Positions 9,364-37,116 of a stretch of DNA of 37,828 nucleotides are shown one piece after another. The translations under genes were made by a program, and so were the position numbers. Every line of letters starts with the position of its first letter. The first letter of the stretch is position 1. Source of the DNA: a virus; IMG/VR virus record IMGVR_UViG_3300046001_006083, positions 1-37,828 of that record; one strand, written 5' to 3'. A model generated the notes under the pieces. The model ran no database searches, was not told the DNA's origin, and worked only from the letters and a program-made list of their open reading frames with translations.

Positions 9364-11411
9364 CGCTCGTCACCAAATGGATTGACGAGATAAATCTTGC
9401 CGAGCAAGAGCTTCAGCCGTGGTGGCGGGCTGGCGACGTTATCGTGCGCCGCTACAAGAACGAAAACCGCAACCGAGGTGGCGGGCGTCCGTCCGTGGAC
9501 TACCTCGCGCGACGCTTTGCGGTGCTGTGGTCTAACGTCTGTACCCTTCAGCCTGCCATCTATGCCAAGCAACCCAAGCCGCTGGTGGATCGCCGCTATC
9601 GCGACGACGATCCGGTCGGCAAGGTTGCCTCTGACGTGCTGGAGCGGGCGCTTGGGTTCAGCCTCGACCAATACGACTTTGACGGACGCCTAAAGCATTG
9701 CGTTCTGGACTATCTGCTGCCGGGCCGTGGCCAAGTGTGGATGCGCTACATCCCGCACATGAAGACGCTGAATGCGGAGGATGACTCCGAGCTTGGCGAA
9801 GGCGAGGAAGACGCTGACCGTGACGAGGTTGGCGAGGTCGAAACGCCGGAAGCAACTGAGGAAGTGGTTTACGAGGAAGTCCAGTGCGACCACGTCGCAT
9901 GGAAAGACTGGCTGACCAATCCCGCGCGAGAGTGGGCAGAGGTCCGGTGGGTGGCTCGCCGCGTCTATATGACCAAGGCTGAGTTGGTGAAGCGGTTTGG
10001 CGAGGAAAAGGCCAAGCTGGTTCCGCTTTCAACAATGTCCACTGGCACAGACACGGCCACGGATGCGCAGCGCCAAGCCAACAAGACGGCTGAGGTCTAT
10101 GAGATTTGGGACAAGCCGAGCAAAACGGCGTTTTGGGTGTCCAAGGGCTACACGGGCGGCGTTCTGGATGAGCGCGAAGACCCGCTTGGCCTGAGAGAGT
10201 TCTTCCCATGCCCTGCCCCGCTCAACGCGACGGTTGGGCCTGATAGCACGATCCCGGTGGCTGATTACGTCATGTATCAGGATCAGGCTGAGGAACTGGA
10301 CGAACTGACGGCCCGCATTGGCAAGCTGCAAGACGCGCTGCGGATGGTGGGTGTTTATGCCGGTGAAGCCAACCGAGAGCTTCAGTTGGTGTTCTCGCCG
10401 GGCAATGAGAACAAGCTGATTCCAATCGACACGTTCGACCTGTGGAAAGAGAAGGGCGGCGTTAAGGGCCTGATCGAGTGGGTGCCGGTGGATATGGTCA
10501 TCCAGACGCTCAAGGGTTGCTATGAGGCGCGCGGGCAAGTCCTGAATGACATTTACCAGATCACCGGCCTGTCAGACATCATTCGAGGCGAGAGCAACCC
10601 CAACGAGACGGCAACGGCTCAACGGCTGAAAGGCCAGTGGGGTTCGTTGCGTGTTCGTGACCGTCAGCGCGACCTTCAACGGTTTGCGCGTGATGCTATC
10701 CGGCTCAAGGCTGAGATCATCGCGGAGCATTTCAGTATTGATACGCTGAAGGCCATGACGAACGTGAAGCTTCTGACGGCGGCTGAGAAGGCCCAGATTG
10801 AGCAGATCATGCCCATGATCCAGCAGGCGGAACAAGCGGGCCTGCCAGTGCCGCCCGGTTTGGCTCCCCCGCCTGAAATGCTGGAGCTTATGAGCGAGCC
10901 AACATGGGATGAGGTGCAGGCGCTGCTGAAGAATGATGCGCTGCGTTCGTTCCGCATTGACGTTGAGACTGATTCGACCGTGGAGCCGGACGAGAACGCG
11001 GCCAAAGCGGCATTCACCGAGTTCACGGGTGCGGTGGTTGGCTTGATGACTGCTGCGGCTGGTATTGTCCCGACTGCGCCTTACACGGCCCCGCTGTTTG
11101 CGGAAATCTTGAAGCAAGGCGCACGGACGTTCAATGTCAGCCGGTCGATGGAAGACGTGATTGATAAGGTGTTTGAACAGGCAGAGGCCGCGCCGCCTGT
11201 CCAGCCGCCGGGTCCGCCACCGCCTGACGAAACAGCGGTGCAGGTGGAGCAGATGAAGTCGCAAACGGCCCAGATGCAGGCTCAGATCGAGCAACAGCGC
11301 ACCCAGATGGAAGGCCAACTAGGGGCGGCTGAACTGCAACTGAAAGGCCAAGAGCTTCAGGTTAAGGCTGCGGCTCTCTCCCGTGACCCGACCCCGCAAG
11401 GTGTGGCATGA
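9330..11411 (+). CDS. portal protein
   Basis: This is a large portal of 693 residues, in the size range of P22/podovirus portals. Recognisable parts are the N-terminal WWRAGDVIVRRYKNEN, a long helical crown/wing region with RARGQVLNDIYQITGLSDII-like EARGQVLNDIYQITGLSDII (about residues 395-414) followed by GESNPNETATAQRLKGQWGS, and a glutamine-rich coiled-coil tail (QVEQMKSQTAQMQAQIEQQR). The ring forms the packaging channel and tail attachment site. The ATG at 9330 is preferred; a TTG four codons upstream is possible. The C-terminus is proline-rich before the coiled coil. Confidence 0.92.
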   Translation: MLPTEPENEAVTLVTKWIDEINLAEQELQPWWRAGDVIVRRYKNENRNRGGGRPSVDYLARRFAVLWSNVCTLQPAIYAKQPKPLVDRRYRDDDPVGKVASDVLERALGFSLDQYDFDGRLKHCVLDYLLPGRGQVWMRYIPHMKTLNAEDDSELGEGEEDADRDEVGEVETPEATEEVVYEEVQCDHVAWKDWLTNPAREWAEVRWVARRVYMTKAELVKRFGEEKAKLVPLSTMSTGTDTATDAQRQANKTAEVYEIWDKPSKTAFWVSKGYTGGVLDEREDPLGLREFFPCPAPLNATVGPDSTIPVADYVMYQDQAEELDELTARIGKLQDALRMVGVYAGEANRELQLVFSPGNENKLIPIDTFDLWKEKGGVKGLIEWVPVDMVIQTLKGCYEARGQVLNDIYQITGLSDIIRGESNPNETATAQRLKGQWGSLRVRDRQRDLQRFARDAIRLKAEIIAEHFSIDTLKAMTNVKLLTAAEKAQIEQIMPMIQQAEQAGLPVPPGLAPPPEMLELMSEPTWDEVQALLKNDALRSFRIDVETDSTVEPDENAAKAAFTEFTGAVVGLMTAAAGIVPTAPYTAPLFAEILKQGARTFNVSRSMEDVIDKVFEQAEAAPPVQPPGPPPPDETAVQVEQMKSQTAQMQAQIEQQRTQMEGQLGAAELQLKGQELQVKAAALSRDPTPQGVA

Positions 11412-12520
11412 CGCAGCAGGGATTGAGGCAGGCCAGCGCCCGTGACTTGAGCGGGTTCGCAACCGAGACAAACTACAACGAAGACCTGTTGCGCCTGTTT
11501 GATGCGGAAAGCGTCCCCGCTGGCACGTTCAACGAGCGTCAGTTGCGGTGGATCAACACGCGCATGGGGGCGAGCTACACCAATCTTGATGAGGCCATGC
11601 AGGCTTATGCGACAAGCCAAGGCGCGGCTAACTGGTCTGCGATGGGTGCGCTAGAGAACACGGTAAACTTCACGCGGGCCATGCCGTTTGGAGCGACCTA
11701 CACGCGCACCGGAGCGGCCACGGGACTTACGACTGCTGGAGCGTTTCAGACGTTTGCGGCTGACGTACCGCAGCGGACTGATCGGGGTTTGGCGCTGGAA
11801 CCGGCGCGGACCAACGCGATCCTGAATAGCGGTGACGCGACGCTGTTTGCGGGCACCAACGGCTGTTCGATGGTCAAGCTAACGCAGACGTTGCCACCGT
11901 TCGAGCGGGTGAGCCTTGCATCGGCCAACAGTGCCAATAACCGCATCCGCGCGGCAGCAATCCCCCTAACCAACAGCGCCGTTTACACGGTCAGTTACAT
12001 TTACGAACTTGGCACCAGCGGTTTGCTGGCATTGTTTGCCGATGGCACGGTGTCTGCCGCTGCCCGTCGTGATGAAGACGGCCTGTGGATGTATACCGCA
12101 GGCACGAACGGCACGTTCAGCGGCGCGGTCGATACGGTGCTGACCGGCTCAATCCGGCGCGTGGTGCTGACGTTCACTGCTGCGGCGCTGGTGGTGGGCG
12201 ATGTGCAATTTGGCGCAGGCCCAAATACCAATACGGGCGGGCTAACGAGCATCCAGCACTTCATGCAGCATGAACCAGGGGTCTTTGCCACCTCACCAAT
12301 TGTGTCAGCCGGAACGGCTTTGACGCGCGGCCTGCCGGTGTTCACCGAGCCGGTGCCGCCTGCCCGCACCAAGGCGCTGCTGACCTACGCGGACGCTAGC
12401 ACGACGCTTGTAACCGGCCTGACGCCGGGCGGGACGTTTGATGTGGCTACGGCTGTCATTGGTGCAGGCAAGGGCCGCTTCAACGCATCGGAACTTGTGT
12501 CGAGGGTTTGGCAAGCGTGA
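11408..12520 (+). CDS. virion-associated fibre- or decoration-like protein
   Basis: This 370-residue protein has a helical N-terminus (SARDLSGFATETNYNEDLLR, DEAMQAYATSQGAANW) and then a beta-rich region with alternating Thr, Gly and Ala. ATYTRTGAATGLTTAGAFQT and RGLALEPARTNAILNSGDAT resemble the jelly-roll carbohydrate-binding modules found in phage tail fibres. It is unusual to see such a module between portal and scaffold. It may decorate the head vertex or head surface. The ATG overlaps the portal stop (ATGA). The specific role is not known. Confidence 0.7.
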   Translation: MTQQGLRQASARDLSGFATETNYNEDLLRLFDAESVPAGTFNERQLRWINTRMGASYTNLDEAMQAYATSQGAANWSAMGALENTVNFTRAMPFGATYTRTGAATGLTTAGAFQTFAADVPQRTDRGLALEPARTNAILNSGDATLFAGTNGCSMVKLTQTLPPFERVSLASANSANNRIRAAAIPLTNSAVYTVSYIYELGTSGLLALFADGTVSAAARRDEDGLWMYTAGTNGTFSGAVDTVLTGSIRRVVLTFTAAALVVGDVQFGAGPNTNTGGLTSIQHFMQHEPGVFATSPIVSAGTALTRGLPVFTEPVPPARTKALLTYADASTTLVTGLTPGGTFDVATAVIGAGKGRFNASELVSRVWQA

Positions 12521-13884: not shown

Positions 13885-14856
13885 ATGACCTCCCCGAATG
13901 TTTCGGAAATCGCAACCACTACCCTGCGTAACCGCACGGGCAAGCTGGCCGATAACGTCACCAACAACAACGCGATTCTGTCGCGTATGCAGCGCCGTGG
14001 CACCATCAAGCCGGTTTCCGGCGGGCGCACCATCCTGCAAGAGCTGGAATACGCTGAGAACGTCACTTATCAGCGTTATTCGGGCTACGAAGTGCTCAAT
14101 ATCTCGCCTAGCGACGTGTTCACCTCGGCTGAGTTCGACTGGAAGCAAATCGCCGTTAACGTGACCATGAGCGGTCTGGAGCAACTGCAAAACTCCGGCG
14201 TTGATGCCATCATTGACCTGCTGGCCTCGCGTATCAAAAACGCTGAGAAAACCATGCAGAACGGTGTGGCCGAAGACCTGTACTCGAACGGTACGGCGTC
14301 GGGCGGCAAGCAGATTGGTGGCCTTCAGCTTCTCGTGGCTGACGATCCCACCACCGGCACTGTCGGAGGCATCAACCGGGGAACGTGGAATTTCTGGCGT
14401 AACCAGAAGTTCCAAGCGACCTCAGACGGTGGTTCGGCTGCTACGGCTGCCAACATCACCCGCTTTATGAACACCCTGTATCGCCAATGCTCGCGCGGTA
14501 CGGATAAGCCTGACCTGATCCTCTGCGATGACAACTATTTCGGCCTCTATGAGTCGTCGCTTCAGGACATCCAGCGCGTCACTAACCCCAACGAAGCGGA
14601 CGCTGGTTTTGTCTCGCTGAAGTACAAGGGCACTGACGTTGTGTTCGACGGTGGTTACGGCGGGGCCTGCCCTGACAACCACATGTACTTCCTGAACACC
14701 GGCTACATCCACTGGCGTCCTCACAAAGACCGCAACATGGTCCCGCTTGAGGAAGTCCGGTCGATCAATCAGGATGCCATGGTCAAGCCTATCGTCTGGG
14801 CGGGTAACATGACGCTCTCCAACGCCTTCCTTCAGGGCGTTCTGTTCCAGTCGTAA
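13885..14856 (+). CDS. major capsid protein
   Basis: This 323-residue coat protein begins NVSEIATTTLRNRTGKLADN and has the conserved segments NAILSRMQRRGTIKPVSGGR, YEVLNISPSDVFTSAEFDWK and QIAVNVTMSGLEQLQNSG. It ends with an extended C-terminal domain. The sequence pattern matches a capsid family common in short-tailed phages of proteobacteria with the HK97 fold. It follows the scaffold gene, with GGAGAAG nine bases before the ATG. No protease gene is visible, so the head probably matures without cleavage. Confidence 0.93.
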   Translation: MTSPNVSEIATTTLRNRTGKLADNVTNNNAILSRMQRRGTIKPVSGGRTILQELEYAENVTYQRYSGYEVLNISPSDVFTSAEFDWKQIAVNVTMSGLEQLQNSGVDAIIDLLASRIKNAEKTMQNGVAEDLYSNGTASGGKQIGGLQLLVADDPTTGTVGGINRGTWNFWRNQKFQATSDGGSAATAANITRFMNTLYRQCSRGTDKPDLILCDDNYFGLYESSLQDIQRVTNPNEADAGFVSLKYKGTDVVFDGGYGGACPDNHMYFLNTGYIHWRPHKDRNMVPLEEVRSINQDAMVKPIVWAGNMTLSNAFLQGVLFQS

Positions 14857-14880: not shown

Positions 14881-15168
14881 ATGGCTTCGACTGCCGCTAC
14901 GGTCTTCGCGACCACTCCGACTGCGGGGATTGATCTGGACGACAAGTCCTCGACCCCGGCATTTGCCGTCAACACGACGGTTCGTGCCAACGACGCGCGC
15001 CTGCACCTCTACGCTCGCGCCTCGGAGGCCCTTTCCTCGACCCAGACCATCCTGATTGGCACCAACGGCTCTGCGTCGTCGGATGCTGGTTCGGCTGGCT
15101 TCACGGTCAACACCACGGGCGGCGTTGCTGCAGGCCAGTATTTCTGGGCCAAGCGCACCGCCATCTAA
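14881..15168 (+). CDS. small head protein (possible decoration protein, 95 aa)
   Basis: This 95-residue protein is rich in Thr, Ala, Ser and Gly (MASTAATVFATTPTAGIDLD) and probably all-beta. Its strong AAAGGAG site and place between the capsid gene and a terminator predict abundant expression. A head decoration protein is a good guess; homology was not established. Confidence 0.7.
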   Translation: MASTAATVFATTPTAGIDLDDKSSTPAFAVNTTVRANDARLHLYARASEALSSTQTILIGTNGSASSDAGSAGFTVNTTGGVAAGQYFWAKRTAI

Positions 15169-15214
15169 GGCCTTTCGCCTTCCCTAGCCTCCACTGGGGT
15201 TAGGTGTTAGCTTA

Positions 15215-15246
15215 ATGGCCTCGGGGTTCGTCCTCGGGGCCATTTT
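15215..15246 (+). terminator. intrinsic terminator after head genes
   Basis: The hairpin ATGGCC...GGCCAT (15215-15243) has an inner stem CGGGG/CCTCG around TTCGT and is followed by TTTT. It lies in the 93-bp gap after the small head protein and would limit read-through, so capsid genes could be expressed above the genes downstream. Confidence 0.75.
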
Positions 15247-15261
15247 GCTATGGAGGTAGCT

Positions 15262-15420
15262 GTGAAAAAGCCAAGACTAGAAATTCCAGCGTGGCTTGCC
15301 GTGGAAATGGGCGTGTCAGCCGTGGAAGCCATGAAGGCGCAAGTTGTAGAAACTTGCGGCGGGCGATGGGTTCCGCAGATCAAGCGTGACAGCATTGTTC
15401 ATGTAGGCGCGCGGAAATGA
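15262..15420 (+). CDS. unknown small protein (52 aa)
   Basis: The GTG at 15262 follows GGAGG by five bases. The 52-residue product (MKKPRLEIPAWLAVEMGVSA, ending VHVGARK) is basic with a helix VEAMKAQVVETCGG. The stop overlaps the glycosyltransferase start (ATGA). No family was recognised; the ribosome site and coupling support translation. Confidence 0.6.
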   Translation: MKKPRLEIPAWLAVEMGVSAVEAMKAQVVETCGGRWVPQIKRDSIVHVGARK

Positions 15421-16847
15421 TTAACGTCGTCAGCGTCCGCGTTGGGGACAAATACCCGATTGAATACGTCACCCGCCTTCACGACGGCATCGCCCGCCAT
15501 CTGGACGAAGAACAAGCCCACTATTGCGTGACGGATCGTCCGGGCGAGTTGCCGGAAGGCATCACGGCAATCCCGAGCAATCCAGACTTGCCCGGTTGGT
15601 GGGCAAAGGTCGGCTTGTTTTCTCGTCGTATGCCGTGGGATGACGGTGCGGAAGTTCTGTATATGGACCTTGACGTATGCGTAACCGGCAGGCTCGAAGG
15701 CTTGCAGCACGGCATCATTCAGGACTGGCACTGGCCCTGCTATAACAGCAGCGTCATGCGTTGGCGTCATGGCGAACACGCGGACATTTGGGACCGTTTC
15801 ACGCCAGACGTAATCGACCGCCCCACGGAAAGCCTTAAGGGCCTTCTCCCTGCCGGTCAAGTCAACGGCGGCGATCAAGAATGGATAAGCCAAGTCAGCG
15901 CATGGGAGACTTTCCCCGCTGATATGTTTGTCTCATACCGGAACGCGGTGTCATGGCCACCGGAGACAGCGAAGGCGGTAATCTTTCACGGTGAGCCTAA
16001 GCCCCATGAGGTGACGGAGGGGTGGGTGCCGGGCGTCTGGCGCGTTGGCGGTTATACGGCCATGCCAGAGCTAAAAGGCATGAACGTTACGCATGATTTT
16101 GCCTATGCCAATGTGCGGGCGAACGTGCTGCGGGATTTGCCGTGGTTTTCCGGTTTTGGCGAGCAAGACAAGGCTTGCGTCATCGTCGGCGGCGGTCCCT
16201 CGCTTTCTAACAGTGTGCAAGCCATCAAGGACCACCGCAGGCGTGGCGCGAAGATTATCAGCGTCAACAATGCGCTGCGATATCTGACAGAGCGGGGCGT
16301 GACGCCGGACGCTCATGTCATGCTGGACGCGCGGGAAGAAAATCTGCACATGGTTGAGGATGCGCCACAAGCCGTGCGCTATTTCCTCGCTTCACAGGTT
16401 CATCCGTGCGTGTTTGATGCGCTTTCGGGGCATGATGTTGTGCTGTGGCATAACGCAATGGGTTCCGGTGAGGAGCTTATGGAAATCATCAAGCCGTGGT
16501 TTGATGAGGGGCCGGACCAAAAGCCATGCGTTCTGGTACCGGGCGGGGGGACTGTAGGTCTGCGGGCCATCAATCTGGCGTGGCTGTCAGGCTACAAGAA
16601 AATCCACCTGTACGGCTTCGATAGTTCATATGCCGAGGGGGCACATCACGCCTACTCGCAAAGCCTGAACGACGGTGAGCCGACAATGGATGTCGTGCTA
16701 GGTGACAAGACTTACACTTGCGCCCGGTGGATGATCCGTCAGGCGATGGAGTTCCAACAGCAGCTTTTGTATTTGCGCGACCGAGGCGTTAAACTCATCG
16801 CTCATGGGACCGGTCTTATTCCCGATATGGAAAGGCTTTTGCGATGA
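15417..16847 (+). CDS. GT-A glycosyltransferase fused to Maf/DUF115-like glycosyltransferase
   Basis: This 476-residue protein has two parts. Residues 1-220 resemble a GT-A glycosyltransferase, with a metal-binding DLD in VLYMDLDVCVTG (84-86), a GGDQEWIS segment and VIFHGEPKPHE. Residues 250-476 match the DUF115/Maf family: CVIVGGGPSLSNSVQAI (254-270), ISVNNALRYLTERGVTPDAH, VLVPGGGTVGLRAINLAWLS and IHLYGFDSSYAEGAHHAYSQ. Maf proteins transfer sugars such as nonulosonic acids to flagellin. The fusion lies in the virion operon, with an FkbM methyltransferase 465 bp downstream. Modifying virion proteins or host surface glycans is plausible; the acceptor is unknown. Confidence 0.8.
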   Translation: MINVVSVRVGDKYPIEYVTRLHDGIARHLDEEQAHYCVTDRPGELPEGITAIPSNPDLPGWWAKVGLFSRRMPWDDGAEVLYMDLDVCVTGRLEGLQHGIIQDWHWPCYNSSVMRWRHGEHADIWDRFTPDVIDRPTESLKGLLPAGQVNGGDQEWISQVSAWETFPADMFVSYRNAVSWPPETAKAVIFHGEPKPHEVTEGWVPGVWRVGGYTAMPELKGMNVTHDFAYANVRANVLRDLPWFSGFGEQDKACVIVGGGPSLSNSVQAIKDHRRRGAKIISVNNALRYLTERGVTPDAHVMLDAREENLHMVEDAPQAVRYFLASQVHPCVFDALSGHDVVLWHNAMGSGEELMEIIKPWFDEGPDQKPCVLVPGGGTVGLRAINLAWLSGYKKIHLYGFDSSYAEGAHHAYSQSLNDGEPTMDVVLGDKTYTCARWMIRQAMEFQQQLLYLRDRGVKLIAHGTGLIPDMERLLR

Positions 16848-17059
16848 GAATGGAGCGGCCTCCGCACATAACAGACGCGCAATGGGTCAACTGGTACGGG
16901 GCCAAGCGCCGCGACGACGGGACGTTTCAAGCGCCCATGAGTGTTGCGCATTTGATGCCGGACCCCGCCCGTACCAAGCCGTCGAAGCGCCCGCAGCCTA
17001 AACCCGTGGCCGCAACAGGTCCAGACATGACGCGTCCTGTTTGGAAGCCGTCGTTATGA
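16844..17059 (+). CDS. unknown proline-rich small protein (71 aa)
   Basis: The ATG at 16844 overlaps the upstream stop. The 71-residue product starts with an ordered-looking segment (RPPHITDAQWVNWYGAKRRD) and turns into a basic proline-rich tail ending TRPVWKPSL. Coupling on both sides supports it. It could be a partner or a substrate of the glycosyltransferase; no evidence decides. Confidence 0.55.
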   Translation: MRMERPPHITDAQWVNWYGAKRRDDGTFQAPMSVAHLMPDPARTKPSKRPQPKPVAATGPDMTRPVWKPSL

Positions 17060-17136
17060 TGCTGGCGCTTGGGTTTCTTGCCGTTTGGCTGCTGTGGCTG
17101 CTAGTCGTCGGCATCTTTGTGAACACGCGCCGATGA
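17056..17136 (+). CDS. tiny single-pass membrane peptide (26 aa)
   Basis: The ORF starts at an ATG overlapping the preceding stop and ends where the next ATG begins. Its 26 residues are one hydrophobic helix (ALGFLAVWLLWLLVVGIFV) with a basic C-terminus NTRR. It could be a membrane anchor or lysis regulator. The length is small, but both junctions are coupled. Confidence 0.5.
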   Translation: MMLALGFLAVWLLWLLVVGIFVNTRR

Positions 17137-17315
17137 GCAGTCAGTATCACGAACGCAACGACAACGACCGACGCAAGGCGTGGGCAACGCTCAAATGGTA
17201 CCCGGAGCGGCTGACTGATGCTGACCGAGCACTTTTGCTGTTGGAGGAACCGGACTTTTATTTTCCGGTGGATGCCAACCGGCATTTGTATGACGAGCGG
17301 GGCTTTGCCAAGTGA
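17133..17315 (+). CDS. unknown small protein (60 aa)
   Basis: The 60-residue product begins MSSQYHERNDNDRRKAWATL and includes KWYPERLTDADRALLLLEE and DFYFPVDANRHLYDERGFAK. No family was recognised. The ATG at 17133 overlaps the membrane peptide stop, and the stop overlaps the FkbM start (GTGA). Confidence 0.6.
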   Translation: MSSQYHERNDNDRRKAWATLKWYPERLTDADRALLLLEEPDFYFPVDANRHLYDERGFAK

Positions 17316-17890
17316 AGTTGATCGACGGTCTGTGGTGGCCGGATTTTGACGTGCGCTGCCGTGCTGCGGTGGTGACTGAGTGCGCGGCGGCTATGCCTAT
17401 CGTCCTGCCGTTGGTGAAGGAAAAGCGCGTCTGCGTCCAAGCGGGCGGGAATGTCGGCGTCTATCCCCTCGCATTGGCCAAGGTGTTCGATCAGGTCATC
17501 ACGTTTGAGCCGGACGCGGCGAACTTCGATTGTTTGTCGATCAATGCCGATAAGTCTAACATTCAGCGATGGTGGGGCGCGCTTGGTGCGGAGCAGGGGC
17601 AATGTTCTGTCGTGCCGACAGAGAGAGACAATTGCGGCGCTCACAAGACGGTGCCCGGATCGGCGGTGTGGGTTGATACGATTGACAGCATACCGCTAGA
17701 CGCCTGCGACCTGATCTGGCTGGACATTGAAGGCGCGGAGGCTGACGCCATCAAAGGCGCTATGGCGACAATCGAGAAGTTTTCGCCTATAATCGTTCTT
17801 GAGGAAAAGGGACTAGGCCCGAAAGCCGATCTGCCCGGTTATTCTCGCGTGATGCGGATTGGCAATGACACTGTGTATTGGAGGACATAG
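17312..17890 (+). CDS. FkbM-family methyltransferase
   Basis: This 192-residue methyltransferase has a Rossmann cofactor site VQAGGNVGVYPLALAK (42-57), the acidic FEPDAANFDCLSIN (65-78), and the FkbM hallmark LDIEGAEADAIKGA (137-150). FkbM enzymes O-methylate hydroxyl groups of sugars or natural products. Here it probably caps a glycan made by the fused glycosyltransferase upstream. The usual aspartate of the first cofactor motif (VDVGAN in many relatives) is replaced by Gln-Ala, which may affect binding. The GTG overlaps the previous stop; the gene ends with TAG one base before the next ATG. Confidence 0.85.
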   Translation: MKLIDGLWWPDFDVRCRAAVVTECAAAMPIVLPLVKEKRVCVQAGGNVGVYPLALAKVFDQVITFEPDAANFDCLSINADKSNIQRWWGALGAEQGQCSVVPTERDNCGAHKTVPGSAVWVDTIDSIPLDACDLIWLDIEGAEADAIKGAMATIEKFSPIIVLEEKGLGPKADLPGYSRVMRIGNDTVYWRT

Positions 17891-18412
17891 ATGGAATATG
17901 TAGCGCCTGACGGACGGGACCGGATCATCCCGCGTTTCCACATTAAGCCGGTTCGCAACAACTTCCTGTCGGAAAAGGAAGGGCGAGAGGTTTGGAACGA
18001 CGTTGAGTACGTCGAACTGATCGTGCCGGGCGATAACAAGAACATTGTGGATGTGGCTGTCAAGGACGAGCACCGCGAACGCTGGCCTACCAAATACGCG
18101 GCGTTCAAAGCCAACATGGAAGCCCCGGAAAACGGCACACCGCTAGAGGAGTGGGCGGGCGTGGGCCGTAGTCAGGTCATTGAGCTTAACAGCGTCCATA
18201 TCCGCACGGTGGAGGCTCTTGCTGGCCTTTCAGACAGCCAGCTTGCCAAGTGCATCCCGATGGGCGGGCAGGCTCTGCGCGCTAAGGCTCAACGGTTTAT
18301 TGAGCAAACTGACGCGGAAAAGCCCCTTGCGGAAATGAGCCAGCGCATCCGTGAGCTTGAGGAAAAGTTGGCTCTCGCACTTGAGGCCAAAGCAGAGAGG
18401 GAACCAGCATGA
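17891..18412 (+). CDS. conserved virion-module protein (173 aa)
   Basis: This 173-residue protein has a beta-rich N-terminus with DVEYVELIVPGDNKNIVDVA and RERWPTKYAAFKA. A helix-hairpin-helix-like part (HIRTVEALAGLSDSQLAKCI) and a C-terminal coiled coil (MSQRIRELEEKLALALEAKA) follow. Proteins of this layout lie between capsid and tail genes in other short-tailed phages. A head-completion or structural role is inferred from that position. Confidence 0.7.
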   Translation: MEYVAPDGRDRIIPRFHIKPVRNNFLSEKEGREVWNDVEYVELIVPGDNKNIVDVAVKDEHRERWPTKYAAFKANMEAPENGTPLEEWAGVGRSQVIELNSVHIRTVEALAGLSDSQLAKCIPMGGQALRAKAQRFIEQTDAEKPLAEMSQRIRELEEKLALALEAKAEREPA

Positions 18413-18741: not shown

Positions 18742-19443
18742 GTGGCCAATCTGCTTACCATCGTCCAGCGGGCCTGCCGTCTGCTTTCGATCCCTGTCCC
18801 CACCGAAGTCGTCAACTCGACTGACACTCAGGTCCAGCAACTCTATGCGCTGGCCAATGAGGAAGGCGACGAACTAGCGGGGACGTATGATTGGCAGGTC
18901 ATGCGTAAGCAGCACCTGTTCGATACGGTGGCGAGCGCGGTCCAGTCCAGCGCCATTCCGTCAGACTTTGACCATTTCATTGCCAACTCGTTTTTCAATC
19001 GCACGACCATGCGGATGATCTACGGGCCGATCACTCCGCAAGAGTGGCAGGCCATTCAGGCGCAGCCCCAACTCAACCGCGTGTTTCTGGCGTTTGTGGA
19101 GCGTGACGGGCAGTTTCTTGTGACGCCGACGCCTCCGGCTGGCCAAGAGATTGCATACGAGTACATCACAAAATACTGGGCAAAGTCGGCTGCTGGCGTT
19201 CCGCAGGCTGAGTTTCTAGCCGACACGGACGAAACCTATCTCGATGACAAGCTGTTTCCGCTTGGCCTCCGCTGGCGCTTTCTGAAGTCGAAGGGGCTGG
19301 ATTATAGTGAAGACTTCCGCAGTTACCAAAGCGAACGAAATCAAAGAATGGCAAGAGACGGCGGCAATGGTGTAATAGATACCGCTGGTGGAGCCTATTA
19401 CGGCTGGTCAACAAACATCATGGAAGGCAACTTTCCCGGATGA
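18742..19443 (+). CDS. head-tail adaptor / tail accessory protein (P22 gp4-like)
   Basis: This 233-residue protein has the pattern of short-tailed phage adaptors: LLTIVQRACRLLSIPVPTEV, QLYALANEEGDEL, YDWQVMRK, then a beta region and LGLRWRFLKSKGLDYSEDFR near the end. Such proteins form a ring below the portal to which the tail attaches. The start is GTG at 18742, three bases after the previous stop. The HNH gene that follows overlaps its stop. Confidence 0.8.
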   Translation: MANLLTIVQRACRLLSIPVPTEVVNSTDTQVQQLYALANEEGDELAGTYDWQVMRKQHLFDTVASAVQSSAIPSDFDHFIANSFFNRTTMRMIYGPITPQEWQAIQAQPQLNRVFLAFVERDGQFLVTPTPPAGQEIAYEYITKYWAKSAAGVPQAEFLADTDETYLDDKLFPLGLRWRFLKSKGLDYSEDFRSYQSERNQRMARDGGNGVIDTAGGAYYGWSTNIMEGNFPG

Positions 19444-19940
19444 TAGTTTTGATTAAACTGACGCGCGATTTTGTTGCCGTTGTCGATGAAGACGACAAAG
19501 ACTTGCTACACGATAAATGGGCGGCATCGACAATCGGAAAAGCCGTGTATGCGGTTCGTGACATTGGCGGGCGAAAGGCAAAAAAACGTCTTCTTTTGCA
19601 CCGCGTTGTGGCAGAGCGCATGGGGCTAGATTTGGTTGGGAAGGTAGTCGATCACATTAACGGTGACGGCCTCGACAATCGCCGTGTTAATCTTAGGGCG
19701 GTGACGCGCACCGAAAACGCAAGAAACCTGACCGGCAAACGCGCTAACAACACTTCTGGCTTCATGGGCGTAAGTTTTGAACCGCGTTACCGCCACAAAT
19801 GGTCTGCGTTGATTTCGGACGGCAGGAAAAAAACAATTATTGGCCGGTTTGATACTGCGGAAGAAGCAAATGAGGCCCGCCTAGCGGTAGAGCGCCAAAT
19901 GTGGGGCGTTCAGCCACGCCGTGAGGCTGCACACGCATGA
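19440..19940 (+). CDS. HNH homing endonuclease with AP2-like domain
   Basis: This 166-residue nuclease has an HNH motif of LLLHRVVAE and VVDHINGDGLDNRRVNLRAV (residues 69-88), then an AP2-like DNA-binding part (SGFMGVSFEPRYRHKWSALI, GRFDTAEEANEAR). This combination marks free-standing homing endonucleases that invade phage structural operons. Base and codon use differ visibly from the neighbours, with A/T-rich stretches such as runs of A in the middle, suggesting transfer. It is inserted so neatly that both ends keep ATGA overlaps. Confidence 0.92.
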   Translation: MIVLIKLTRDFVAVVDEDDKDLLHDKWAASTIGKAVYAVRDIGGRKAKKRLLLHRVVAERMGLDLVGKVVDHINGDGLDNRRVNLRAVTRTENARNLTGKRANNTSGFMGVSFEPRYRHKWSALISDGRKKTIIGRFDTAEEANEARLAVERQMWGVQPRREAAHA

Positions 19941-20295: not shown

Positions 20296-21983
20296 TGAGA
20301 CAAGCAGCGCAGCGATACGGTCGCCAGCCTTTACGGGCGCTATCTCAACAGCGGGTGTCTATCGGACGCGCTGTGCCTGCGCCTGTCGGCGGATGGGATG
20401 CACAATCCCCGCTGGCCAATATGCCTGCGGAAAACGCGGTCATCCTCGACAACTTTATTCCTCGCGCTGGTTATGTGGAACTGCGTAAGGGTTATGTGCC
20501 GTGGCAAGAGGGCCTGCCTTTGCCGACTGAATCGCTGTTGGTCTGGCGCGGTGGTGTAGCGTCAAACGCTGACGATATTTTTGCAGCGGCGGGCGGTTCA
20601 ATCTATGACGTAAGCAACCAGAATGACGCGCCGGTTGAGGTGTTTTCTGGCGCTGGCAATGCGCGCTGGCAATGGATCAATTTCGCCAATGACGCGGGGA
20701 CGTTCCTGATTGCAGCGAATGGGTCTGTGGACCCGATCTATTACGACGGTTCCGCGTTTGCCTCGACGGCCATCACCGGGACGGCAGGGGTGATTACCCT
20801 TGACCCGCGCACCTTGATCGACGTGATGGATCACAAGGGCCGCTTGTTTTTTGTGCAGGAAAACAGTCTGCGGTGCTGGTTCCTTGAGCCATTTTCCGTT
20901 CAAGGCACCGCCAATCTGCTGGACCTTGGCCCGATCTTCGATAAGGGCGGCTCAATCCTTTGCCAAGCCACTTGGACGCTGGACGGTGGTTCCGGGGCCG
21001 ATGATCTAGCGGTATGGGTGACGACGCAGGGTCAGGTGGCCGTGTATCAGGGTCTTGATCCTTCGGACGCGAACAACTGGGCGCTTGTTGGGGTCTATGA
21101 CCTTGGCCTGCCGCTCTCGCGTCGGTCGCTCATCAAGTACGGCTCCGACCTTGTAGTGCTGACGACTGACGGCGTTGTGCCGCTTTCGCAGGCGCTGAAA
21201 CTGGACCGCGCACAAGAGAACCTTGTGGCGCTGACGCAGAAAATCCAGAACGCTTTTCAGCAAGCGACAAGTCGATATCGCGGCAACTTTGGATGGGAAG
21301 GCGCCCTTTATCCGAAGGGCACGCTGGCGATTTTCAACGTCCCGACGGCCAACCTGACGCGCTCGGAACAATATGTGCAGAACGTCCAGACGGGCGCGTG
21401 GTGCCGGTTTACGGGCATCAATGCGTTCTGTTGGGCCGTGGCCAATGACCAAATGTACTTTGGCGCGGCGGATTCGGTCTGTCTGTGGGATAGCGGCTAT
21501 GCCGACAACACGACCGGCATTGTCGGGGATATCAAAACGGCCTTTAACTATTTTGGATCGCGCGGAAGCCTGAAGAAGTTTGAAATGCTTCAGCCGGTTC
21601 TGCGTATCGGTGCGGACCTTGCCCCGGCAGTTGAGGTGGTCACGGACTTTAAAGAAGCCATCCCCACGGCGGTTCCTACTACTATCCGCACGACGGGCGG
21701 GCGATGGGACACGGGCCTGTGGGACACCGCGTTGTGGTCTAACAGCGTGGAGACGCGCGATAGCTGGACGAGCGTTACCGGCATTGGCTATTGCGGCGCG
21801 GTGCGGATGCGTGTTGCCCCTAACGCCACGCTCTACATCGACCTTGGCGTGGATGACGATACGTCCCTCGCTTACGCGTCAGACGGCATTATCGCGATGC
21901 AAACGGCACGAAATACGAACGCGCCGTGCGAGATCATCGCCTTCAATCTGAAGTACGAGAACCAAACGGGCGGGCAGCTTTGA
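20295..21983 (+). CDS. tail structural protein (562 aa)
   Basis: This 562-residue beta-rich protein opens with a basic segment and PVGGWDAQSPLANMPAENAV, ILDNFIPRAGYVELRKGY. Repeated blade-like strands follow, including IDVMDHKGRLFFVQENSLRC, LVVLTTDGVVPLSQALK and GTLAIFNVPTANL. The N-terminal motif is shared by large tail proteins of short-tailed phages, where they form part of the tail tube or nozzle. The location after the adaptor supports this. A beta-propeller fold is my inference from the repeats. Confidence 0.8.
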   Translation: MRQAAQRYGRQPLRALSQQRVSIGRAVPAPVGGWDAQSPLANMPAENAVILDNFIPRAGYVELRKGYVPWQEGLPLPTESLLVWRGGVASNADDIFAAAGGSIYDVSNQNDAPVEVFSGAGNARWQWINFANDAGTFLIAANGSVDPIYYDGSAFASTAITGTAGVITLDPRTLIDVMDHKGRLFFVQENSLRCWFLEPFSVQGTANLLDLGPIFDKGGSILCQATWTLDGGSGADDLAVWVTTQGQVAVYQGLDPSDANNWALVGVYDLGLPLSRRSLIKYGSDLVVLTTDGVVPLSQALKLDRAQENLVALTQKIQNAFQQATSRYRGNFGWEGALYPKGTLAIFNVPTANLTRSEQYVQNVQTGAWCRFTGINAFCWAVANDQMYFGAADSVCLWDSGYADNTTGIVGDIKTAFNYFGSRGSLKKFEMLQPVLRIGADLAPAVEVVTDFKEAIPTAVPTTIRTTGGRWDTGLWDTALWSNSVETRDSWTSVTGIGYCGAVRMRVAPNATLYIDLGVDDDTSLAYASDGIIAMQTARNTNAPCEIIAFNLKYENQTGGQL

Positions 21984-22450
21984 GGCTAGTCTCCGGCCCG
22001 TTCTCGCCTTTGGTCGCTCAGTGGGTAGCGGATCAAATCGGGCACGGGCTGGACTGGGGGCCATGCGAGGCTATTGGGGTGGTCGATAAGAACGACAATC
22101 TCGTTGGGGGTGTGGTTTTTTCAAACTTCAGGCCGGACATAGGCAACATAGAGGTCAGTTTTGCCTCCATAAAAGCAAACTGGTTGACGCCTAAGCTCGT
22201 CACGGGTATCCTTGGATACGCATTCAATCAGTTGAAATGCGCTCGGATCACCAGCCAGACCCCCAAGCGGAATCGTCGGGCTCGCCAGTTCCTCCAAAAG
22301 TTTGGTTTCAAACAAGAGGGATGTGTTCGACTTGGCTTCGGTGACGATGACTCCATCATTTCAGGCTTGCTGGCCTCTGAGTGGGCCTGTCATCGGTTCA
22401 ATCGAGAACGTGCTTCCACGTGTCTCCACGAACAATCCCGCGTATCGTAG
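21980..22450 (+). CDS. GNAT-like acetyltransferase in virion operon
   Basis: This 156-residue protein resembles phage GNAT proteins found among podovirus tail and core genes. PFSPLVAQWVADQIGHGLDW lies near the start, followed by AIGVVDKNDNLVGGVVFSNF, then SQTPKRNRRARQFLQKFGFK where the acetyl-CoA loop and GF-K motif lie. The exact substrate is unknown. The TTG start overlaps the stop of the tail gene (TTGA). Composition is poorer in G+C than the flanks, and the C-terminus after GLLASEW looks unrelated to the fold. Confidence 0.75.
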   Translation: MRLVSGPFSPLVAQWVADQIGHGLDWGPCEAIGVVDKNDNLVGGVVFSNFRPDIGNIEVSFASIKANWLTPKLVTGILGYAFNQLKCARITSQTPKRNRRARQFLQKFGFKQEGCVRLGFGDDDSIISGLLASEWACHRFNRERASTCLHEQSRVS

Positions 22451-35464: not shown

Positions 35465-36277
35465 TCAGAACGGTTGTCGTCCGTCAGGCCCTCGAATAAA
35501 TACCCCGTCACTGTCCGTAGGTAGCCACCCGTCGTCGGGTAGGTCAGGCTGACTTGCGGCTGCGGAACGACGCTCAATGAGGATATCAACCATTGATGCA
35601 GGTTTCTGTCTGTGTCCTCCGGCGCTTGGCTTTCCAGCTTGGCCAGCGCCGCGCCGGTTGCGACACCACGTCCGCCAAGTGGCTGGCCAGTCGAGTTTGC
35701 AGCCTCCTGCGCCCGGCTTACTAATCCAGAAATCACGGAATTGATCGGCTTCACGTCTTGTCTCCTCGGGGGTCATGTTCTGGCTGGCTGCGAATGAAAG
35801 ATCGGCTTGCGATGGAACCCAATCCGAAGGCAATCGGGAGCCTTTCTTTGGAGAAGACGTAGTCTTCTCTTTCTTTAACTCTGGTTCTGGTTCTGGAGAA
35901 TGCTTAAGCGATCGTGAAGCATTTGCTGACGCCAGTTTGTTAGATTTCAATGCCTTAGCTCTCGCACCGGCTTTCCCGGAATCTGATCTTTTCTGCGACT
36001 TTTCTTCAGCGATTGAGAGTTCAGCGGAGAGCCTTTTCTGCGTAAACCCGCCCTCGCAAGGCGTGAAAAACTCCAGAACCTCGGCACAGATTTTCAGCCA
36101 ACGGGACGGCGTTAGGCCCGCGATTCTGGCCAGCTTTACGGGGTTGTCAGACAAGACGCCTTCGGAGCGCCACATGGTCATAAGCAGGAGCAAATAGGCC
36201 CCGTGCTGCTCGGTTGTCAGGTGCCGCGTGTCGCCAAGGTAGTCGGCGACGTAAAGCTGCATGAAGGGGGCGCTCAT
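35465..36277 (-). CDS. DUF1376/YdaU-like replication protein
   Basis: This 270-residue protein opens with the DUF1376 hallmark FMQLYVADYLGDTRHLTTEQ, HGAYLLLLMTMWR. A winged-helix-like part (SRWLKICAEVLEFF), a basic low-complexity linker and a C-terminal domain ending WISKPGAGGCKLDWPATWRT follow. Such proteins stand where replication initiators or primosome parts lie in phages without their own helicase loader. The ATG at 36277 overlaps the upstream stop (ATGA); earlier in-frame codons are rejected. Confidence 0.87.
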   Translation of the reverse strand: MSAPFMQLYVADYLGDTRHLTTEQHGAYLLLLMTMWRSEGVLSDNPVKLARIAGLTPSRWLKICAEVLEFFTPCEGGFTQKRLSAELSIAEEKSQKRSDSGKAGARAKALKSNKLASANASRSLKHSPEPEPELKKEKTTSSPKKGSRLPSDWVPSQADLSFAASQNMTPEETRREADQFRDFWISKPGAGGCKLDWPATWRTWCRNRRGAGQAGKPSAGGHRQKPASMVDILIERRSAAASQPDLPDDGWLPTDSDGVFIRGPDGRQPF

Positions 36278-37116
36278 TCGTCGCCTCCGCACCATGTGCC
36301 GCATTCTGCGTCTTGCTCGTCATCGGGCGGGATGTCGAAAAAGTCGGGCTGTTCCTCAACCTCGCGAACAAGGTCGGAAAACGTCCATTCTTTTGAGAAT
36401 GAGCCTTTGCTGTTCACTTCCTGTGTGGCCCACCAAGCCGCCCGCTCGGGGTTTTTTCGGATAAGGCCCTTGAGGGTCCCGCGACCCTTTAGGAAGCAAA
36501 GGTCACAGTTTCCCTCGTGGGGCTTAAGGCCAAGGTCAAAGTCCTGAGCCGCCCAAAATGCCTCTACATCGCGGCGCGTTATTTTTGCGTTTGCTAACGG
36601 CACCTTGCTGGTCCACGGAGACTTGCCTTCGTAATTCCGCGCGAGCGTTTTAAGGACGCGGTGTCCTTCGTCGTGCCGAAGACCTACGGCATTGTTCCAA
36701 GTCGTCCAGCCCTTCTCGGTCTGGATAAAATGCTTGATCGTATTGACCTTCATTTCCTCCGTGCAAAAGCGCATCACGGAATTGGGCGTGAAGGATTTAG
36801 CCTTTATAAGCCGCTCAAACGGCTCGCCGTCCCGACTGGAGCTATTGTAGCTGACGCGCTCGTAGCGGCCCGCGCTAGGTCCAGATCGAGAGACAAACTC
36901 AAGCCACACAATATCGACGCCCCATCTCGCGCCACACTCATAAACGAAGCGTAGCGTTTCAGGCCGCTCCTTGCCAGTGTTGGCAAAAACAACGACGTGA
37001 TTTCCCGGCAAAAGACCCTTGTAGGAGCGTAAGGCCCGCCAAAGCATGTAAGCAGACGTGCGCCCGCCGCTGAATGACCAGACGGTCGGTCCGTCAAAAA
37101 CGAACGGGTCGCTCAT
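36274..37116 (-). CDS. PAPS-reductase-like PP-loop protein
   Basis: This 280-residue adenine-nucleotide alpha-hydrolase protein has the PP-loop SFSGGRTSAYML (14-25), VVVFANTGKERPETLRFVYE (41-60), a lone cysteine in MRFCTEEMK (C118), and GNCDLCFLKG (C204, C207). The last looks like a metal or iron-sulphur site, as in phage PAPS-reductase and DndC-like proteins. Possible jobs are sulphur chemistry, DNA or tRNA thiolation, or another nucleotide-activated reaction. It is separated from a DNA methyltransferase only by a 250-bp gap. No other Dnd gene is present, so phosphorothioation is unproven. Confidence 0.85.
   Translation of the reverse strand: MSDPFVFDGPTVWSFSGGRTSAYMLWRALRSYKGLLPGNHVVVFANTGKERPETLRFVYECGARWGVDIVWLEFVSRSGPSAGRYERVSYNSSSRDGEPFERLIKAKSFTPNSVMRFCTEEMKVNTIKHFIQTEKGWTTWNNAVGLRHDEGHRVLKTLARNYEGKSPWTSKVPLANAKITRRDVEAFWAAQDFDLGLKPHEGNCDLCFLKGRGTLKGLIRKNPERAAWWATQEVNSKGSFSKEWTFSDLVREVEEQPDFFDIPPDDEQDAECGTWCGGDE

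Follow-up and report, generated by a model that had tools for sequence, protein, structure and literature searches.

Results

Organization of the locus

The window analysed here, a 37,828-bp IMG/VR virus contig (record IMGVR_UViG_3300046001_006083, positions 1 to 37,828), encodes a portal protein and a large terminase, together with a small terminase subunit of the Sf6 type. Its capsid protein shares 52% identity with that of Myxococcus phage Mx8 and 57% with that of Bradyrhizobium phage ppBjS10J-1, and together these features identify the phage as Mx8-like. The major capsid protein gene (13885..14856; phrog_9953 major head protein, E 1.5e-119) is followed by the gene of a small, β-rich head protein of 95 residues (14881..15168), 26% of which are serine or threonine and which is also encoded directly behind the capsid gene in relatives. 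A terminator-like hairpin (15214..15244), consisting of a 13-bp stem followed by T's, and a 56-residue open reading frame (15250..15420) precede a 476-residue glycosyltransferase–Maf fusion (GT-Maf; 15417..16847), which comprises a GT8-fold domain (residues 1-213) and a Maf-fold domain (residues 225-474). Three tiny open reading frames of 71 (16844..17059), 26 (17056..17136) and 60 residues (17133..17315), the second specifying a membrane peptide, lead to an FkbM-family methyltransferase of 192 residues (17312..17890). All of these features lie on the plus strand, and stop-to-start overlaps (ATGA/GTGA) join GT-Maf, the three tiny genes and FkbM. The tail-side module begins with the next gene, at 17891. 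This layout agrees with a preliminary description of the same DNA, which had placed the enzymes between the head and tail modules together with three tiny coupled genes, one of them a membrane peptide.

GT-Maf combines a GT8-type domain with a Maf domain

The 476-residue open reading frame carries a DLD motif at residues 84-86, as previously described. Residues 247-407 match PF01973 (E 1.3e-25, 90.6 bits against a cut-off of 34.6), the MptE-like family formerly known as DUF115/Maf, in line with the similarity proposed earlier for residues 250-476. Residues 7-209 match the phage glycosyltransferase family phrog_1962 (E 4.9e-20), whereas a Pfam search with residues 1-213 returned no match, Glyco_transf_8 included; the anticipated GT-A half is thus recognized by the phage profile but not by the Pfam GT8 profile.

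An AlphaFold2 model of GT-Maf, built from the window and locus sequences only, has a mean pLDDT of 90.6 and a single weak stretch (residues 215-220) located between the two halves. In fold searches, residues 225-474 superimpose on the Magnetospirillum Maf protein (5mu5) with a Z score of 21.8 and an r.m.s.d. of 2.9 over 224 residues, and archaeal MptE (8sd5) also matches this half (Z 15.2). A sequence profile search alone also retrieves 5mu5 (E 6e-6). Residues 1-213 resemble the GT8 enzymes LgtC (Z 16.9 over 197 residues) and glycogenin (Z 16.6 over 189 residues), so that the model reveals a Maf fold and a GT8-type GT-A fold in the two halves. Residues D84, D86, G152-D153-Q154 and H191-G192-x-P-K195-P196, which belong to the DLD (84-86), GGDQ (151-154) and HGxPKP (191-196) motifs, are invariant in 11 diverse orthologs. 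We take them to be equivalent to the DxD, GDQ and HxGxxKP-type motifs of active GT8 enzymes, the last motif being two residues shorter in GT-Maf. The N-terminal half therefore has fold and motifs in common with the GT8 family (LgtC, glycogenin, GlyE) and differs from it by escaping the Pfam GT8 profile and by being one half of a Maf fusion.

The downstream methyltransferase matches FkbM (PF05050; E 7e-10, 39.7 bits against a cut-off of 22.7) and a phage methyltransferase family (E 1e-25), and its N47, E66-P67 and D138-x-E140-G141-x-E143 residues, corresponding to the SAM-site and DxEGxE motifs, are invariant. Over about 50 relatives, dN/dS amounts to 0.08 for GT-Maf and 0.16 for FkbM, which indicates that both are real genes under constraint. 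Profile and comparative evidence, complemented by fold comparisons for GT-Maf, therefore upholds both the GT-A/Maf fusion and the FkbM assignment.

The hairpin and the tiny genes are not specific parts of the cassette

The 15214-15244 hairpin is more stable than all 200 shuffled sequences (0 of 200 as stable; z = -5.7), and it recurs upstream of GT-Maf in most close relatives, where the 13-bp stem is kept with bases changed on both sides. The terminator reported just ahead of GT-Maf is thus well founded. It probably sets head versus tail expression and, as this may be all it does, we do not consider it cassette-specific.

The 56-residue open reading frame located between the hairpin and GT-Maf has no match in the 57 closest relatives and is probably outside the system. 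The three tiny genes are accessory: of the 54 close relatives encoding GT-Maf as well as FkbM, matches were found in 2 for the 71-residue product, in 14 for the 26-residue peptide and in 39 for the 60-residue product. We therefore rejected them as system parts, contrary to the preliminary description, even if the 60-residue product (dN/dS 0.05) is common, though not universal.

A recurrent and repeatedly re-fused cassette

GT-Maf is carried by 57 close relatives of the window phage. FkbM is encoded downstream of it in every one of the 54 whose contigs are long enough, and the remaining three contigs break off within GT-Maf or shortly behind it. Across Mx8-like contigs, gene content varies in the stretch that separates the small head gene from the tail-side gene. 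Whereas the window phage and its close relatives have GT-Maf with FkbM, five contigs (L079, L080, L082, L143 and L147) have GT-Maf without it. The domain order is opposite to that of the window in the Maf–GT fusions of L167 (2625-4157) and L168 (5968-7320), and Maf and GT are separate genes in L169. A 471-residue Maf–FkbM fusion followed by two separate GT genes occupies the site in L153 (1927-3342) and L154 (2268-3683). Maf is fused to a Methyltransf_25 domain in L131, L133, L134 and L136, accompanied by separate methyltransferase and GT8 genes in L132, and alone in L090, L095, L096, L126 and L127. Nothing comparable is present in Mx8 itself, BUCT555, ppBjS10J-1, Ruegeria 45A6 or Rhizobium I3_18. 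The Maf and methyltransferase parts of these fusions are confirmed by Pfam, and the GT parts were assigned with a profile built on the GT-Maf family.

The preliminary description had suggested a survey of co-occurrence in related phages. Counting each distinct capsid-gene end once, 63 of 101 distinct sites have Maf, 55 of these with a GT and 53 with a methyltransferase, and neither a GT nor a methyltransferase occurs at any of the 38 sites without Maf, these counts being inflated by kinship and by GT-Maf having been one of the search queries. Mapped on the capsid tree, the presence of Maf requires no fewer than 10 changes (3 of which are imposed by well-supported branches) and the architecture 16, all at the same site. 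In independent-pair tests on this tree, neither GT nor methyltransferase was significantly associated with Maf, the supported pairs being too few. The strongest evidence of a common pathway comes from the fusions: at this single site the domains are joined in different pairs and in more than one order, and hence very probably act together, as judged from gene architecture. We consider the enzyme identities and the common pathway of GT, Maf and methyltransferase well supported.

FkbM and GT8-like genes also lie close together without Maf on two other virus contigs outside this lineage (L152 1779-3970 and L158 2626-3890), and we accordingly propose priming by Maf for the capsid–tail site only. 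Searches of phage isolates returned GT-half matches only, both for GT-Maf and for the reversed Maf–GT protein, and no match for the Maf-only protein; the Maf–Methyltransf_25 protein had one methyltransferase-half match in phage records, in an uncultured phage. No cultured carrier is therefore known. When bacterial and archaeal genomes were scanned with the GT-Maf alignment, the sole match was a GT-half relative in a Legionellales MAG, so that the scan pointed to no host or prophage.

Candidate acceptor proteins

The major capsid protein and the 95-residue head protein are the two candidate acceptors, and both accompany the cassette in the relatives that we read. The 95-residue protein weakly and non-significantly resembles capsid decoration proteins in a fold search (best E 0.14); many of the top matches are phage capsid proteins, none of them significant. 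The small head protein is also found in phages without the cassette (L115, L125) and is therefore not cassette-specific.

Within one sub-clade, a longer head protein occurs in five of five Maf-positive phages and in one of 14 Maf-negative phages, which represents very few independent events. Maf-positive contigs among L126-L136 encode head proteins of 157-183 residues, with genes often abutting or overlapping Maf, and in the Maf-negative L104-L125 most are 88-100 residues long. Despite this strong pattern, we do not tie Maf to the longer head protein, since the independent events are too few.

The β-rich 370-residue protein put forward earlier as a target (window 11408-12520) is encoded between the portal and scaffold genes and has weak tail-protein similarity. 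Its gene is a variable gene at a fixed site: it is found in 18 of 54 close relatives, and several contigs that reach its flanking genes show no match. Unlike the capsid and 95-residue proteins, it does not always accompany the cassette, and it is unlikely to be an obligatory target.

Discussion

Comparison with known glycosylation systems

Maf enzymes attach nonulosonic acids to serine or threonine residues of flagellin and have three domains, including an N-terminal Rossmann-like domain and a C-terminal helical domain (PMC11339370). The central Maf/PF01973 domain of the flagellin glycosyltransferases (Magnetospirillum 5mu5, Clostridium CbMaf) has the same fold over 224 residues in GT-Maf, and protein O-glycosylation is a likely shared activity. 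GT-Maf aligns with residues 244-503 of 5mu5 and ends there; it is devoid of the Rossmann-like and helical domains and bears a GT8 domain in front instead. Its gene is located between capsid and tail genes and not in a flagellin or flagellar locus. GT-Maf represents a compact enzyme, with a Maf catalytic domain that dispenses with the flagellin-type accessory domains.

Maf, GT and FkbM are found together in bacterial flagellin islands (PMC5109656; for FkbM, see also PMC4875605). In Geobacillus and Enterobacteriaceae, as in the phage, Maf and/or a GT together with FkbM are encoded in the locus of a surface protein that is abundant and self-assembles. The phage cassette differs from these islands by having two enzyme genes with fused domains and no sugar-biosynthesis genes, and by lying beside a capsid gene; among the window proteins scanned, we found no sugar-nucleotide gene.

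The A064R protein of chlorovirus PBCV-1, a GT–GT–methyltransferase protein, builds the O-methylated end of the capsid-protein glycan (PMC9614988). The PBCV-1 system (A064R and A061L) resembles the phage cassette in that a virus-encoded protein with two GT domains and an O-methyltransferase equips the capsid protein of the same virus with a methyl-capped glycan. It belongs to a eukaryotic virus, makes N-glycans and uses a second glycosyltransferase of another new family rather than Maf, so that by analogy A064R is the closest functional precedent but not a homologous system. In mycobacteriophages of the Che8 type, phage-encoded glycosyltransferases are reported by papers citing the original work (among them PMC12619734) to be linked to glycans on virion proteins; these papers place the genes towards the 3′ end of the genome, and not next to the capsid gene as in the window, and make no mention of a Maf domain.

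Glycosylated virions are known from only a few groups of phages. In the papers searched, a set that excluded most subscription journals, we found no phage Maf, no paper tying a Maf-type enzyme to a phage and no prior description of this arrangement. The Maf domain and the modular re-fusion set the cassette apart from known virus-encoded protein glycosylation.

A proposed model for virion protein glycosylation

Our favored interpretation, which we regard as probable, is that the cassette constitutes a compact phage-encoded protein O-glycosylation kit that modifies a virion protein, probably one of the head. The Maf half would begin by linking a sugar to serine or threonine residues of the acceptor, this sugar probably being a CMP-activated nonulosonic acid made by the host, or a similar molecule. 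Only Maf, among the three activities, is found on its own at the site, which suggests that it probably performs the first step by transferring sugar to protein. The GT8 half would then add a second sugar from a UDP-sugar, and FkbM would cap the glycan by O-methylation, the donors and the order of these steps being inferred. Since the cassette directly follows the head genes within the virion operon, we expect the acceptor to be a virion protein, most likely the 95-residue head protein or the major capsid protein, and we place moderate confidence in this class of target. The capped glycan would alter the particle surface and presumably benefit the phage. The re-use and re-fusion of the same parts at the same spot in related viruses suggest that these phages decorate their own virions with a capped sugar. 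Glycosylation and capping of a virion protein, as envisaged in the preliminary description, is thus the best-supported reading, shorn of any role for the tiny genes and of the 370-residue protein as an obligatory target. Points that weigh against it are the missing C-terminal helical domain of bacterial Maf, the occurrence of the small head protein in cassette-free phages, the few independent events behind the longer head proteins and the failure to find a sugar-nucleotide gene among the window proteins scanned.

The main alternative, also raised previously, is that the enzymes modify flagellin, O-antigen or another glycan of the host surface and thereby block further infection or the release of progeny onto cell debris. 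Phage glycosyltransferases that alter host surface glycans are well established, and in Escherichia phage Chlobot a distant relative of the GT half is encoded next to the genes for integrase and tail fibre; Maf domains, moreover, are known from flagellin glycosylation (PMC11339370). The cassette, however, recurs beside capsid genes, between head and tail genes of many phages, as part of the virion operon and not as a separate moron, which makes a host target less likely. No gtr-type flippase or membrane glycosyltransferase lies beside it, and late expression would leave little time for superinfection exclusion. We therefore regard this alternative as unlikely, albeit the foremost rival. The gtr-type serotype conversion was set aside, as the cassette contains neither a flippase nor a membrane bactoprenol glycosyltransferase and its only membrane piece is the non-conserved 26-residue peptide.

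Modification of another virion protein, such as a tail fibre, tail-needle or ejection protein, could tune adsorption and would fit the tail genes directly downstream in the same operon, but the site is fixed on the capsid side in all architectures seen and the cassette shows no link with any one tail gene, making this quite improbable. Only one half of GT-Maf might be active, the cassette then adding a single sugar, methylated or not: Maf alone in several relatives implies that one sugar can suffice, and FkbM is absent beside GT-Maf in the five contigs mentioned above. The invariance of the catalytic-type motifs of both halves and of FkbM, and the low dN/dS across the whole fusion, leave little room for this scenario. 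Least plausible, and hardly tenable in our view, is glycosylation of phage DNA bases as a protection against restriction. DNA-glycosylating phage glycosyltransferases are known (cited in PMC12619734), but the folds are those of Maf and GT8 and the gene belongs to the virion operon instead of accompanying DNA genes, on which grounds we set DNA modification aside. Neither was a hydroxymethylase or base-modification gene found among the window proteins scanned, a set that left out some small open reading frames of a contig that may be incomplete.

With a virion protein as the preferred acceptor, we tentatively suggest, at slightly less than even confidence, that the flagellin-type Maf machinery has been taken over by Mx8-like podophages and serves them as a modular system for capsid O-glycosylation. 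A Maf-like enzyme would prime the glycan, and exchangeable GT8 and methyltransferase modules, repeatedly swapped and fused at a fixed position after the capsid gene, would generate serotype-like variation of the virion surface. A small gene set re-fused in varied orders at a capsid-adjacent site makes virion protein O-glycosylation directly testable and, if the model is correct, it would widen the known range of ways in which phages change their own surface.

Other genes in the window

HNH_3 endonuclease genes are scattered through the virion operon of the window (19440-19940) and of L018, L035, L052, L053, L080 and L143, and some relatives have one within the cassette interval. A PAPS-reductase-family gene (36274-37116) adjoins a DUF1376/primosomal gene on the minus strand. 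A GNAT acetyltransferase gene (21926-22450), located between tail genes, is conserved across Mx8-like phages, and its counterpart is labelled a potential holin in the Mx8 record.
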